DNA of 64,000 nt, from assembly GCF_018409545.1 (NCBI RefSeq), contig NZ_AP024563.1, positions 478,501 to 542,500 on the forward strand. Reading direction: 5' to 3'. The translations under genes and the position numbers were made by a program. Source of the DNA: Allochromatium tepidum. Its GTDB lineage: Bacteria; Pseudomonadota; Gammaproteobacteria; Chromatiales; Chromatiaceae. The notes under the pieces are model-generated. The model was not told the DNA's origin, did no database searches, and saw only the letters and a list, made by a program, of their open reading frames with translations. How positions within the stretch are numbered: position 1 is the stretch's first letter; each line of letters opens with the position of its first letter. Below, piece after piece: positions 30,654 to 36,431 of this stretch.

Positions 30654-31499
30654 TCAGGAGAAGGCCAGACGCGCGGCGATCAGCAGCAACAGCACGCCGA
30701 AGAGCCGTTTGAGCAGGGGCACCGGCAGACTGTGCGCGAGCCGGGCGCCGAGCGGAGCGGTCGGAATGCTGGCGAGCAGCATGGCCAGCACCGCCGGCCA
30801 GTAGACGAAACCGCTGCTCCAGTCCGGCAGTCCGCTCCGCCCCCAGCCGACCAGCACGAACCCCAGCGCACCCGCCACCGCGATCGGCAGTCCGCACGCC
30901 GCCGAGGTGCCGACCGCTTGGCGCATCCCGATCCCGCAGCTGCTCAGGAAGGGAACCGTGAGCGTTCCGCCGCCGATGCCGACCAGTGACGACAGAAGCC
31001 CGATCCCGCCGCCCGTGGCGGCCAGTCCCGCGTGTCCCGGTAGCGGGTGCGGTGCCGAGACGGCTTTCGTGGACGTCATCAGCAGACGCACGCCGACATA
31101 GGCGAGAAAGACCGCAAAGATCCGTTGCAGCCAGAGGCTGGGAATCCAGCCGGCCAGGGCCGCTCCGGCCAGGGCGCCGATGACGATGCCGGGCGCCAGC
31201 GGCCGGACGATGTCCCAGCGCACCCCGCCGCGCCGATGGTGCGCCAGCGTGGAGGCCGCACCCGTGCCGATGATGGTCGCCAGTGAGGTTCCGACCGCCA
31301 GATGGGCCAGCCAGTCGCCGCCGATGCCGCCGAGCGCGCCGAAGAGCAGGATCAGGGCCGGCACTATGACGGCGCCGCCGCCGACGCCGAAGAGTCCGGC
31401 CAGCACGCCGGAGAGTGCGCCGATGGCGAGATAGGCGATGAGTTCGATCACGAGCACAGGGGACGGAGTCTGTTCGACATGGCGGCTATGATACGCCAT
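30654..31499 (-). CDS. TSUP (TauE/SafE) family anion transporter
   Basis: 281 residues and about eight membrane helices in two repeats. GALSGVLAGLFGVGGGAVIV and LLSSLVGIGGGTLTVPFLSS are the duplicated glycine-rich motifs of the sulfite/organosulfonate exporter family. The first 15 residues before VIELIAYLAIG look poorly conserved, so a GTG near the hydrophobic start is an alternative. In sulfur-oxidising bacteria TSUP proteins often move sulfite or organic sulfur anions, but the substrate cannot be told here. Confidence 0.88.
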   Translation of the reverse strand: MAYHSRHVEQTPSPVLVIELIAYLAIGALSGVLAGLFGVGGGAVIVPALILLFGALGGIGGDWLAHLAVGTSLATIIGTGAASTLAHHRRGGVRWDIVRPLAPGIVIGALAGAALAGWIPSLWLQRIFAVFLAYVGVRLLMTSTKAVSAPHPLPGHAGLAATGGGIGLLSSLVGIGGGTLTVPFLSSCGIGMRQAVGTSAACGLPIAVAGALGFVLVGWGRSGLPDWSSGFVYWPAVLAMLLASIPTAPLGARLAHSLPVPLLKRLFGVLLLLIAARLAFS

Positions 31500-31964: not shown

Positions 31965-32069
31965 CGTTTTAGCTCCGGGGCGCGATGGTGGAAGTGGGCG
32001 TTTCGCCGTCGACGGTAGGACGCGAAAGTCTTGAATACAACTCCGAACCTTGAAATCCTAGATGAGGTC

Positions 32070-32804
32070 ATGATGCCGAGACAGATGATACAGACCGACC
32101 CCAAAGGTTACCTGACGTGCGACGAGATCCGGATCGTCGAGGACTTGGTCGAGGTCAAAGGGCACCGGGTGCTGGAACTGGGCTGCGGCGCGGCCTGGAT
32201 GACCCGGCTGCTCGCTACGCGCCTGGGTGCGCGCCGGGTGACGGCGACCGAGGTCGACCGTATCCAGCACGCGAAGAATCTCGCTATCCGGGATCTGCCC
32301 ACTGTCGAGTTCCGGTTCGGCGGCGCCGAGTCGATCGCCGACCCGGATGCGATCTATGACGGCGTCTTTCTGTTCAAGTCGCTCCATCATGTGCCGGTCG
32401 AACTCATGGATCGCGCGTTTGCGGAGATCGAGCGTGTGCTGGCGCCGGGCGGTTACGTCTATGTCTCGGAACCCGTCTACTGGGGGCCGTTCAACGAGGT
32501 CATGCGGCTGATCCATGACGAGCGTGTCGTGCGCACGGCGGCCTATGCCGCCATCGAGCGCGCGGTCGATTCCGGACGTTTCACCTGGGAGCGTCAGGTG
32601 TTCTACCAGTCGGAAGGCGTCTATCCGAGCTGGGACGCCTTCGCCGAGCGCTTCATCCAGGTCACGCATACCGAGCATGATCTCGACGCGGCGCGGCTCG
32701 CCGAGGTTCGTGCGGCCTTCGAGCGTCATTTGACTCCCGAGGGCGCGCGTTTCCTCAAGCCCCATCGGGTCGATCTGCTGCGCGTCAGACACTCGACGAC
32801 ATAA
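32070..32804 (+). CDS. Class I SAM-dependent methyltransferase
   Basis: 244 residues from ATG at 32070 (or 32073, spaced better from GAGG); the frame also opens at TTG 32031. SAM-binding motif I is HRVLELGCGAAWMTRLLA, the acidic loop is ATEVDRIQHAKNL, and YDGVFLFKSLHHVPVELMD and RVLAPGGYVYVSEPVYWGPF are motifs IV-VI of the Methyltransf_11 type. The substrate is not predictable. Its end overlaps the convergent CysZ-DnaJ gene by 20 bases. Confidence 0.85.
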   Translation: MMPRQMIQTDPKGYLTCDEIRIVEDLVEVKGHRVLELGCGAAWMTRLLATRLGARRVTATEVDRIQHAKNLAIRDLPTVEFRFGGAESIADPDAIYDGVFLFKSLHHVPVELMDRAFAEIERVLAPGGYVYVSEPVYWGPFNEVMRLIHDERVVRTAAYAAIERAVDSGRFTWERQVFYQSEGVYPSWDAFAERFIQVTHTEHDLDAARLAEVRAAFERHLTPEGARFLKPHRVDLLRVRHSTT

Positions 32805-33987
32805 GCACCCGCTTGGCCTCGTTGACCTTGGCGGCCAGATAGTCCGAGCCGCCGCGATCCGGGTGCAGACGCTGGATCAGGCGTCGATGGGCGGCCTGGA
32901 TCTCATCGTCTGTCGCATCGGGTGCAAGGCCGAGGATGGCGCGTGCCTCGCTTTCGTCCATGCCGGGGCGATCGGGTGACGGCGGCGGCGGCGTGCGTTC
33001 GGCGTCCGGGCGCGGCGGGGGTTCCCGGAAACGCTGACCGCGCTCATGGGTCAGATAGGCTTCCAGCGCCTCGGCCGACTCGGCGTCGGTGCGATAGCAG
33101 AGATCGAGCAGACCGAGCAGCTCGCCGGTTTCGGTCGCCTCGAGCATGCGTCCGGTGAGCGGTCCGGCGAGGATCTCGCCATCCATGCGTCCCGAGAGAT
33201 GATCGATGGTCAGCAGGATGTAGTGCGTGGCCACGCGCGACTGATGCGGCCCCTGATAGCCGTTGGGTGAGCGGAACTCGCGCACCCACATAGCCGTGGC
33301 GCCGGCCACCGCGACCGGCATCAGCAGAAAGTTGAACACCGGCACCATCGCCATCCCGGCCGTCGCCGCGCCGAAGCCGAGACTGAGTAGGCGCCGCTCG
33401 CGCAGTCGGCGCCGTATCTCGGCGAAGCGCAGACCGTGATTGCCCATCGGATAGTCGCTGTACTCGACCGCCAGCATCCAGGCCGTATAGAGGAACCAGA
33501 GCACAGGCCCGACCAGCGGCACGAACAGCAGGAACAGAAAGGGAATCGCCCACAGCAGGGCATAGGCGAGCTTACGCAGTTCGTCGAGCAGAGTCGGCCC
33601 CAACTCGGCGAGCAGCCGGGCGTAGTCGCCTTCCTGCTCAATGGGGCGGCCGGTCAGCAGCCGCTCGACCTTCTCGGCCAGCAGTCCATTGAAGGGCGCG
33701 GCGATCAGGTTGGCGAGCAGGCCGAAGGTATAAAAGACGAAGACGAACAGCAGCAGGATGAACAGCGGCCAGATGAGCCATTCGAGCCACCCCAGCCAGG
33801 TCGGCAGCCTGGACTCCATGAGCTGCATCAGTCCCTCGAATTGACTGATGCCGACATAGATGGCCGCTGAGAAGATCAGCAGATTCAGCAGCAGGGGGAC
33901 GGCGATGAAGCGTTTGATTCCGGGCCGGATGATGAGCCTCAGGCCCTGAAAGAGATAACCGGCCCCGGCGATGGGATGGCTGGACAT
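32785..33987 (-). CDS. CysZ-like membrane protein fused to a C-terminal J domain
   Basis: 400 residues. About 1-245 is CysZ/EI24-like: GYLFQGLRLIIRPGIKRFIA, FGLLANLIAAPFNGLLAEKV and PLVGPVLWFLYTAWMLAVEY with four or more helices; CysZ of E. coli (about 250 residues) imports sulfate. A soluble linker (about 250-325, HLSGRMDGEILAGPLTGRML) resembles the middle of membrane-anchored single-J proteins. A proline-rich stretch follows, then a J domain (about 342-398: ARAILGLAPDATDDEIQAAH, HPD at 375-377). The sequence is uninterrupted, so this is a true fusion. It may recruit DnaK to the membrane at the transporter. Confidence 0.88.
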   Translation of the reverse strand: MSSHPIAGAGYLFQGLRLIIRPGIKRFIAVPLLLNLLIFSAAIYVGISQFEGLMQLMESRLPTWLGWLEWLIWPLFILLLFVFVFYTFGLLANLIAAPFNGLLAEKVERLLTGRPIEQEGDYARLLAELGPTLLDELRKLAYALLWAIPFLFLLFVPLVGPVLWFLYTAWMLAVEYSDYPMGNHGLRFAEIRRRLRERRLLSLGFGAATAGMAMVPVFNFLLMPVAVAGATAMWVREFRSPNGYQGPHQSRVATHYILLTIDHLSGRMDGEILAGPLTGRMLEATETGELLGLLDLCYRTDAESAEALEAYLTHERGQRFREPPPRPDAERTPPPPSPDRPGMDESEARAILGLAPDATDDEIQAAHRRLIQRLHPDRGGSDYLAAKVNEAKRVLMSSSV

Positions 33988-34072: not shown

Positions 34073-35230
34073 TCAGCGCTCTGATTCCTCGGATGCAACC
34101 GGCATCAAGACGAAGGATTCAATCGTGCTATTTTTGTCGTCTACAGAAATACTGCGAACTGATGGGTTGCTCTTAGGTAGAACCGCAGCCCCACTACCCT
34201 TGTTTTTTGGTTTTACCTTGCGCACCCTACCTCCATCCTCATCAAGCGGCTCTTCGCGTCCGTTCCAAAGCAGACCTGGGCGAGGAACGCGATAATAGGA
34301 CGAATCGCTCTCTGGCTTAGGACGTTCGACCTGCGCACTTCCGACGAATCGCCCCAGGGCTCCGACGAGGTATTCCTCGACGAGGTCACAGCACGTCCAG
34401 CGTCGATTCAAGCGTTCGGCCACTTCGCCGGTCATGCAACTGCCGCCGAAGGGATCGAACACGGTATCGCCTTCGTTGGTCAAGAGACGAATGAAATATT
34501 CCGGCAGATCGGATGGATAGCGCGCCGGATGGGCCTTGATTCCGTGTTCCTGACAATACCGTAAATAGGCGCTATTGCTCTCAGTGTTCGGAATCGCAAT
34601 GAGGTTCGGCGGAATTGCAGCGCCATTGTCGACGCTGAATTTATCGCTAATGTCATGCCCGCTCGGTCGCTTCTTGGCTTTGTAACCTTTCTCCAGCAAT
34701 TCCATCATACTGGGACTATAGGGTTGCAAGACCCTCCGGTTGCTGGCTTTCGGCCAGGGTGTTTTCGAGAGCCACCAAACGGTATTGATTGCATCCTTGA
34801 CGCGAATCCGTCGCACTGTGACCCATTCGGCGGGTGTCGGCAAACGCGACGGATTCCACCAGAAAAAGTCCTGGGCCAAGTGGAAACCGAATTCCTCACA
34901 CAGCATGATCAGCAACTTGTAGTGATAGAGACTGCGTGTTGGTGTGCCTGGATTCCAGGCACCGCCAATGTCGATGACCAGACTGCCGCTGGTCTTGAGT
35001 ACACGATGAAACTGTTCGGCAAAGGGTTTGAACCAATCGAGGTAAGCAGGTGCCTCGGCGTTGCCATATTCTTTCTTTCGTACCAACCCAAAGGGCGGAC
35101 TGGTCATGATGAGATCAATGCTGTTGTCTTCAGTCGTGCGCAGCACATCGAGCGAATCACCCAGATAGATATGCCCGTGCTTGGTTCGATGGAAGATCCT
35201 TGGCATGGATGTAACGTCTTGATTGGCCAT
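34073..35230 (-). CDS. DNA methyltransferase of a restriction-modification pair
   Basis: 385 residues. The catalytic motif TSPPFG (43-48) comes first and the SAM-binding motif VFDPFGGSCMTGEVAERL (about 255-272) later, the beta-class order; TSPPF/Y is typical of N4-cytosine methylases, though N6-adenine is not excluded. The C-terminal 80 residues are lysine- and serine-rich and variable. The gene starts 13 bases after the endonuclease gene, on the same strand. Both are visibly richer in A and T than their neighbours, as expected of transferred DNA. Confidence 0.92.
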   Translation of the reverse strand: MANQDVTSMPRIFHRTKHGHIYLGDSLDVLRTTEDNSIDLIMTSPPFGLVRKKEYGNAEAPAYLDWFKPFAEQFHRVLKTSGSLVIDIGGAWNPGTPTRSLYHYKLLIMLCEEFGFHLAQDFFWWNPSRLPTPAEWVTVRRIRVKDAINTVWWLSKTPWPKASNRRVLQPYSPSMMELLEKGYKAKKRPSGHDISDKFSVDNGAAIPPNLIAIPNTESNSAYLRYCQEHGIKAHPARYPSDLPEYFIRLLTNEGDTVFDPFGGSCMTGEVAERLNRRWTCCDLVEEYLVGALGRFVGSAQVERPKPESDSSYYRVPRPGLLWNGREEPLDEDGGRVRKVKPKNKGSGAAVLPKSNPSVRSISVDDKNSTIESFVLMPVASEESER

Positions 35231-35243
35231 TCGGTGTTCTCCC

Positions 35244-36431
35244 TCAGAGTTCCAACTGTTTCAGCGCCATCGTGGCGCGGGCCTCTCGGTCGAAAGCGTC
35301 GACGATATGCACTGGATTTTGACGAATGGCGTTCAGGTCGGTGCGATCGATCATCACGATGCAGAGATTCGAGTCCGTCATGATTTTGTTGGCGTAGCGG
35401 CGGGCTTCCGAGCCGATATCGCCCGTGCTGACGATCACGATGACGTTCGATTTCAGGAAATGCGTCAGCCCAACCTCCTTTGCGACATCCTCCAAAGACA
35501 CGCGATCCGTGTTCTTGCATTGGATCTGCCAGCGTGAGAAGACGAGCCTTGCCGACTCGAAGATCAAGTCCACTTCCGCGCCGCCCGTGGCCTGTGCCCG
35601 CAGACGGGTCGCCGCATAGTCCATGCCCAGCAGTCGCATGAGCTTGAAGGCCAGTGCTTCCAGCGCCAGTCCGCCGATATAGCGGTCGTCGGAGTCGATC
35701 TCGATCAGGATCTCATCAAGCGGTTTGCATAGCAGATCCAGCAGCTTCGAATCGATCTGATCCTTGAGTTGGTCCAGCAGCGGCATGAGCACATCGGTTT
35801 CCAGCTTTGCGGTTGGCGTGACCATAAGGGGCTTGGCACCCCGGCCGCCGGTGGTCTTGGTGACGGTGATATAGCCGGCATCGTCCAGTGCCTTGAGTAC
35901 CTGCTTTGGCAGGCTTTTTTCAGGGAACTTGACCCCATAGGTCACGGAGGCAAGCCGGGCAACGGCATTCGACGGCTGCGGCTCGGTGAGGCCGGTATTC
36001 GCCGGAGCTTGCAGAAAAGCCCGTTGTTCGGGCGTGAAGCGGGCGAGCACGCCGAACTCATCCGGATGGGTTCCCAACACCTTTTGCAGCCGGATATCGT
36101 CGATCTGCCAACGTCCGCCCACGAAAATTCCGGCCTTCTCCAGCCAGAGTCTCATGATGCTTGGATGTTTACCGCCACTCGGATAGCTGATGCCCCGCAT
36201 CGCCAGTGCCTCGCGCAGGTTGGTCAAATTGACCACCTCGCCGGCCGCCGTCATGTCGCGGATGCACTGCACCAACCCCATGCCGTGGCGATTCAGGAGG
36301 ATGTGACGAGCCGGGGTTTCGTGCAGCCTTGCTTCGTCATCCTTGATGGCGATGAGGTCGCGGCCGAAGTCGGTTAGAACGGCCTCCCCATCGATAAGAC
36401 CATAGGCCTTCATGCCAAGACGGCAGTTCAT
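35244..36431 (-). CDS. Restriction endonuclease, 5' end interrupted by an RNA element
   Basis: 395 residues from the first ATG. The C-terminal third looks like a PD-(D/E)xK nuclease of the Mrr type: YIGGLALEALAFKLMRLLGM, then GGAEVDLIFESARLVFSRWQ and QIQCKNT supply Glu, Asp and Lys of the site (about 280-305). The N-terminal part contains winged-helix-like stretches. The frame stays open upstream of 36431 with protein-like sequence (ARFFSTHGGGDAGNQNKLAM) up to the repeat element ending at 36527, so the true start was probably on the far side. The enzyme may be truncated or silent, while the methylase remains. Confidence 0.78.
   Translation of the reverse strand: MNCRLGMKAYGLIDGEAVLTDFGRDLIAIKDDEARLHETPARHILLNRHGMGLVQCIRDMTAAGEVVNLTNLREALAMRGISYPSGGKHPSIMRLWLEKAGIFVGGRWQIDDIRLQKVLGTHPDEFGVLARFTPEQRAFLQAPANTGLTEPQPSNAVARLASVTYGVKFPEKSLPKQVLKALDDAGYITVTKTTGGRGAKPLMVTPTAKLETDVLMPLLDQLKDQIDSKLLDLLCKPLDEILIEIDSDDRYIGGLALEALAFKLMRLLGMDYAATRLRAQATGGAEVDLIFESARLVFSRWQIQCKNTDRVSLEDVAKEVGLTHFLKSNVIVIVSTGDIGSEARRYANKIMTDSNLCIVMIDRTDLNAIRQNPVHIVDAFDREARATMALKQLEL

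Follow-up and report, generated by a model that had tools for sequence, protein, structure and literature searches.

A CysZ-type membrane protein fused to a Tim14-like J domain in Allochromatium tepidum and members of its family

The stretch of DNA analysed, hereafter the window, comprises 64,000 nucleotides of the Allochromatium tepidum genome (contig NZ_AP024563.1, positions 478,501 to 542,500) and carries a fusion gene (32785..33987, (-)) whose uninterrupted frame encodes 400 amino acids from an ATG start to a stop. Its product is composed, in order, of a CysZ/EI24 part (residues 1-240; 33268..33987, (-)), a middle domain (residues ~249-316; 33040..33243, (-)), a proline-rich hinge (residues ~319-343; 32959..33033, (-)) and a Tim14-type J domain that ends with helix III (residues ~345-399; 32791..32955, (-)). 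The HPD tripeptide was read in the translation at residues 375-377 (32857..32865, (-)). A convergent methyltransferase-like gene, assigned by Pfam (32031..32804, (+)), overlaps the 3′ end of the fusion gene by 20 nt with its own 3′ end.

PF07264 (EI24/CysZ) matched residues 11-224 of the protein with 186.7 bits against a cut-off of 32 (E 6.9e-55, profile positions 1-199 of 199), and the NCBIfam model 'sulfate transporter CysZ' (NF003433) matched residues 6-240 with 275.2 bits against a cut-off of 140. PF00226 (DnaJ) matched residues 351-397 with 32.3 bits against a cut-off of 27.8 (E 1.1e-7, profile positions 5-55 of 63). EI24 and DnaJ were the only Pfam matches at E 0.01; the zinc-finger and C-terminal client domains of class A/B were absent at this threshold, by which the protein belongs to class C. 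None of the family models searched covers the combination of CysZ and J. Open reading frame, PF07264, NF003433 and PF00226 agree in confirming the first-pass annotation, which had described one frame joining a CysZ-like part to a complete J domain with HPD at 375-377. The AlphaFold model (mean pLDDT 84.4, pTM 0.61) displayed CysZ helices, a compact middle unit, a floppy stretch and the three helices of a J domain, the last consisting of helices I-III with the HPD loop and ending there. Ten-residue means of pLDDT were 81-94 in the middle unit and 63 in the block with the HPD loop, and values were low in the hinge, with the minimum at 328-337. Three solved CysZ proteins match residues 5-239 (E 1e-52 to 1e-55), and Foldseek aligned the CysZ part to 6d9z_A with a TM-score of 0.87 by target length.

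Two adjacent genes or a frameshift were ruled out, as the fusion is a single ORF in the independent assemblies of five named species, Allochromatium humboldtianum, A. palmeri, Thiorhodococcus drewsii, Thiobaca trueperi and Imhoffiella purpurea, and of the MAG 'uncultured Chromatium'. These six carriers came from the 80 loci kept of 140 found in a named scan; two further long matches of that scan (L066 and L094) were suspected as fusions and rejected, no ORF in either having both parts. A frameshift or chance joining was also ruled out by a search of the order, in which 42 of 210 genomes, distributed over 10 of 61 genus groups as counted by hand from the rows, gave a single match that begins at residues 1-6 and reaches 396-400; checking 29 of the 42 confirmed them as single ORFs, and all 210 rows carry the family code of the window's own genome. 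We conclude that the fusion is real and conserved and that its J parts are of one origin.

Beyond this search, the fusion was found in 0 of 368 genomes besides its own in a class sample of 369, at least three of the 368 being in the same family, and in its own genome only in a phylum sample of 398, in both cases among the matches listed; these lists run best first, and a very divergent fusion could be missed. Fifteen loci from the two samples were inspected: seven show the motif used and end 150-166 aa after it, thus without a J part, and the other eight lack that motif. The CysZ-J combination is found in one family, which includes many purple sulfur bacteria, and in no other sampled bacteria. 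The earlier statement that this is no standard architecture is borne out, given that it is not widespread; restriction to Chromatiaceae, which had also been raised, holds for the samples searched, with the qualification that the fusion is present in just 10 of the 61 genera in this family group. No such fusion was described among the matches listed for literature on CysZ with DnaJ/J domain or Chromatiaceae; the survey of prokaryotic J-protein domains by Barriot et al. (2020), to which PMC8215388 refers, may list it.

The C-terminal half has relatives among standalone membrane J proteins. Alignment of 20 fused and 25 standalone sequences over the middle and J domains (alignment A2) revealed a middle domain followed by a Tim14-type J domain as common to both groups. 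The window protein aligned throughout these parts with all 25 standalones at 42-55% identity, in keeping with the linker like that of membrane J proteins that had been noticed at first. Standalones that share the middle and J domains are spread through the family and, among the matches listed, are also found in other members of the phylum (36-46% identity). Their open frames are mostly 230-310 aa long, and their N-terminal half displays several hydrophobic stretches as judged by eye. This N-terminal anchor is absent from the fusion, CysZ stands in its place, and kinship is limited to the C-terminal half; the proposal that CysZ replaces the usual single anchor is therefore right about the position and doubtful about the word 'single'.

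Conservation is unequal along this half. Identity in the J core (366-392) is 88% between the 20 fusions and 25 standalones and 92% within each group, and over the whole J domain 68% between and 73-74% within groups, whereas in the middle domain it drops to 37% between groups from 64-65% within them. HPDRGGS is kept in all 29 fusions checked. As these identities read, the Hsp70-facing part is almost unchanged after fusion and the middle domain next to CysZ has diverged. The middle domain has a predicted beta-beta-beta-alpha-alpha fold in AlphaFold models and is conserved in the 45 family sequences, yet has no Pfam family: scanning these 45 members at E up to 1 gave no convincing match, MLLE appearing in three of them with a best E of 0.083. 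When a model of the middle and J domains was submitted to Foldseek, the best 50 rows were J-domain proteins except for a few of low probability, and VIA-align covered residues 98-158 only.

A short J protein with a strong match in its J part only was found in 14 of 146 genomes. It possesses the anchor and J domain of the standalone and lacks the middle domain, as seen in the 12 of 14 that were aligned (ten rows shown; G140 and G131 left out). Nine of these 14 genomes, the window's included, also contain the fusion, and in 9 of the 29 fused genomes the CysZ-borne copy is the only middle domain found; the remaining 20 retain a full standalone. Among the five unfused genomes with a short J protein, G026, G091 and G114 sit among fused rows in the CysZ tree, and G019 and G131 do not. 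The link between fusion and loss of the middle domain from the standalone is thus suggestive rather than strict. The short J protein of A. tepidum itself (L149:1174-1686, (+); C1:1646397) is 171 aa long and consists of anchor and J domain with the middle domain missing, as in several relatives.

In a tree of the middle and J domains, the 29 fused sequences formed one clade (100/100) against 29 standalones, which are a subset of the many found in the family. Upon addition of 20 more standalones, the fused clade was retained at 100/100 and was nested among standalones on a long stem (0.91), its sister being unresolved. Since all 29 fused middle and J parts fall in one clade, the tree points to a single fusion event. 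The CysZ tree has a different shape. Five unfused sequences (G026, G091, G114, G028 and G076) lie in three groups among the fused ones, and four fused rows (G142, G035, G127 and G107) are separated from the remaining 25 by an open fork. The fused rows made up one side of a branch in no bootstrap tree of CysZ. The fused label needs five changes on this tree (4-6 over bootstraps, at least three by starred branches), a count that has no power to separate gain from loss. Because the J parts point to one fusion, the unfused CysZ nested among fused ones are read as later losses, and it is the two trees combined that suggest that the J part was gained once and lost at least three times. The J part thus seems dispensable in some lineages, namely the three unfused groups. 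The clearest case of loss is Allochromatium warmingii, whose CysZ ends in VREFRPTSPT and is followed by psiE: the genes around it are those of fused relatives, and no J remnant was seen between CysZ and psiE. Where the J part is present it appears constrained. Nei-Gojobori dN/dS in 11 close, partly overlapping pairs was 0-0.24 for the J domain, 0.04-0.27 for the middle domain, 0.09-0.21 for CysZ and, where defined, 0.09-0.42 for the hinge, and the 28 fusions in alignment A1 are as little as 53% identical to the window protein over the whole protein.

The surroundings of the gene were analysed in Pfam, and no sulfate-assimilation gene was detected among the nine neighbouring genes in the window. 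The only sulfur hint is a gene of the TauE/SafE ('sulfite exporter') family (30654-31499, (-)). Homologs of these nine genes, and of no others, were sought at 25 fused and 22 unfused loci, some of them incomplete; those recurring near the fusion, with the window's own locus counted, were the alpha/beta hydrolase (13/25), the convergent methyltransferase (12/25), PsiE (8/25) and TauE/SafE (6/25). A TauE/SafE homolog also lies near the CysZ gene of A. warmingii. A sulfur operon around the fusion is unsupported by the recurring neighbours, and no client candidate is indicated among them. Just upstream of the fusion gene, a DNA methylase (PF01555) and an Mrr-type nuclease (PF04471) (34073-36431, (-)) separate it from the alpha/beta hydrolase, which in relatives is its direct neighbour; homologs of the two were not found at the 24 other fused loci, and the pair looks like a restriction-modification insert.

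Of four HSP70-family matches in the A. tepidum genome one is full-length, which makes DnaK the natural partner of the fusion. A second HSP70 match (L250:1480-2964, (-)) does not cover the first 138 positions of the profile, and its start is overlapped in another frame by a J-like fragment that has no HPD (L007:1456-1638, (-)); the two, at C1:964341-965832, look like a decayed J/Hsp70 pair. The first-pass annotation had suggested that the fusion may bring DnaK to the sulfate-uptake or sulfur machinery. Its first half is plausible in view of HPDRGGS in 29 of 29 fusions and the full-length HSP70. The tie to sulfur was not upheld: no sulfate-assimilation gene lies among the nine neighbours, TauE/SafE recurs at 6 of 25 loci, SulP is encoded elsewhere, and the CysZ of some relatives is without J.

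The sequences show the architecture, a shared descent of the fused J parts, the conservation of these parts and a J core that hardly changed. Our favoured interpretation, which we hold to be somewhat better than evens, is that the fusion is a class C, Tim14-like membrane J co-chaperone in which a whole CysZ channel has taken the place of the N-terminal anchor and which acts on the cytosolic side via DnaK. Both termini would lie on the cytosolic side, the J domain there would switch DnaK to its client-holding state, and the middle domain together with CysZ would select the site and the client of DnaK action. That DnaK is recruited to the membrane is inferred on good grounds. The likeliest client may be CysZ itself, as it assembles, opens or is turned over, or a protein next to it; this is a guess more likely wrong than right.

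Where PMC5967866 describes the GLR(R) sulfate-binding motif, alignment to PdCysZ and IlCysZ put GIKR (residues 23-26; 33910..33921, (-)), a conservative form; 24 of the 29 fusions have GLR or GIR and five have GIK. PdCysZ R23K retained 50% of uptake according to the same paper, which names R129, R133 and D183 (PdCysZ) as a conserved core and reports impaired uptake by R129E/Q (PMC5967866). P/D/G occupies these three places in the window protein and in the majority of 50 aligned family CysZ, fused or unfused, and we dropped the idea that fusion caused a loss of sulfate function, given that unfused relatives display the same changed residues. Positions 129, 133 and 183 vary also in seven CysZ from elsewhere, and are thus neither universal nor a strict mark. 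All 29 fusions retain N98, E106, Y177 and N184. In the rest of the A. tepidum genome, no second CysZ was found; five sulfate ABC permease matches were obtained, none above the cut-off, the best of which (L253) adjoins an ATPase that reads as molybdate-type without use of a profile; and the SulP family has two long matches and one short, away from the fusion.

The P/D/G core, considered with the effect of R129E/Q (PMC5967866), would suit the view that CysZ of this family is no longer a sulfate carrier and serves as a platform for a J protein in general membrane-protein quality control, as would the two SulP genes that could supply sulfate and the standalone J protein that is devoid of this domain's middle part in nine of the 29 fused genomes, where it lacks the middle domain. 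We nevertheless regard this view as rather unlikely: the same core changes in unfused family CysZ are not tied to fusion, R129 varies in the seven outside proteins, the four invariant residues and GLR, GIR or GIK at the sulfate motif have been maintained, dN/dS of the CysZ part is 0.09-0.21, and relatives without the J part retain CysZ. Some residual transport of sulfate or a similar oxyanion by the CysZ part is probably likelier than none.

The co-chaperone reading also bears on membrane topology. In PMC5967866, both termini of CysZ lie in the hydrophilic head, and assemblies are antiparallel in three species, with which crosslinks in membranes agree. We counted K/R in the loop between the two membrane-spanning helices (residues 48-72) and in head segments chosen from that topology (PMC5967866), the head being about five times longer than the loop. 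The means for loop and head were 1.03 and 17.9 in 29 fusions, 0.67 and 16.9 in 21 unfused proteins, and 0.67 and 17.1 in nine others including the Pd and Il proteins. From this excess on the head side the C-terminus is predicted to be inside; the same charge bias predicts termini inside for the solved CysZ proteins, where it conflicts with the experiments and does not overturn the crystals. A J domain works only where DnaK is, so all working CysZ-J subunits would have the C-terminus in, and an antiparallel assembly would strand half of the J domains away from the cytosol. A J domain in the cytosol and the strong charge bias of CysZ thus fit badly with the published antiparallel assembly and argue against it here, the charge bias not being decisive. 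It is conceivable, and we propose it only tentatively, that CysZ of these bacteria is parallel, that the antiparallel crystal assembly is not its form in the cell, and that the fusion is a natural topology reporter. If so, CysZ-J would be a channel with an Hsp70 dock built into the mouth that faces the cytosol, and a bacterial counterpart of Tim14 at the import channel of mitochondria.

Should CysZ instead insert both ways, as antiparallel crystals and crosslinks (PMC5967866) could suggest, cytosolic J domains would recruit DnaK and outside ones would be idle. We think this very improbable, since about 160 soluble residues must then cross the membrane in half the copies, and since the head-side K/R excess is about 16 to 17 in fused, unfused and outside CysZ, whereas single SMR genes of dual topology have a K/R bias centred on 0 with 3% beyond 2 (PMC9574504). 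Slightly less probable still is a J part attached once by accident without a specific role, which its apparent repeated loss and patchy spread (10/61 genera) might suggest and against which stand purifying selection on the J and middle domains in the 11 pairs and the constancy of HPDRGGS in 29 of 29 fusions despite whole-protein identity as low as 53%.

Compared with the CysZ sulfate permease (PF07264; 6d9z, 6d79, 3tx3), the co-chaperone proposed here has the same predicted fold over residues 5-239 with a sulfate motif conservatively changed in Allochromatium, and differs by 160 extra residues of middle and J domains and by the replacement of R129/R133/D183, which its unfused relatives share. 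The published antiparallel model of CysZ can be tested simply and naturally through a C-terminal domain that needs the cytosol. With the standalone membrane J protein it shares the middle and J domains and the J core, the N-terminal anchor being gone and the middle domain 37% identical; the fusion draws attention to this conserved domain without a Pfam family in widespread bacterial Tim14-like proteins. DjlA, DjlB and DjlC of E. coli are class C J proteins like the fusion, with anchors and domain orders other than its own. The DjlA equivalog model gave 18.4 bits on the window protein against a cut-off of 162, and DjlB and DjlC are tail-anchored (PMC8215388). J proteins set where Hsp70 works, and permanent joining of one to an ion channel suggests either that DnaK is wanted there or that the channel is a good platform. 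Mitochondrial Tim14/Pam18 (2guz) was the best J-domain match by sequence (E 2e-7; 2.5e-14 with a profile), and 2guz_A was the first J-domain row in Foldseek, with a weak E of 0.024, a probability of 1.00 and an rmsd of 1.4 over 60 columns. Tim14, which has an anchor of its own, acts at a protein translocase. The fusion is without a protein-translocating channel, and is like Tim14 in carrying its J domain on a membrane protein.
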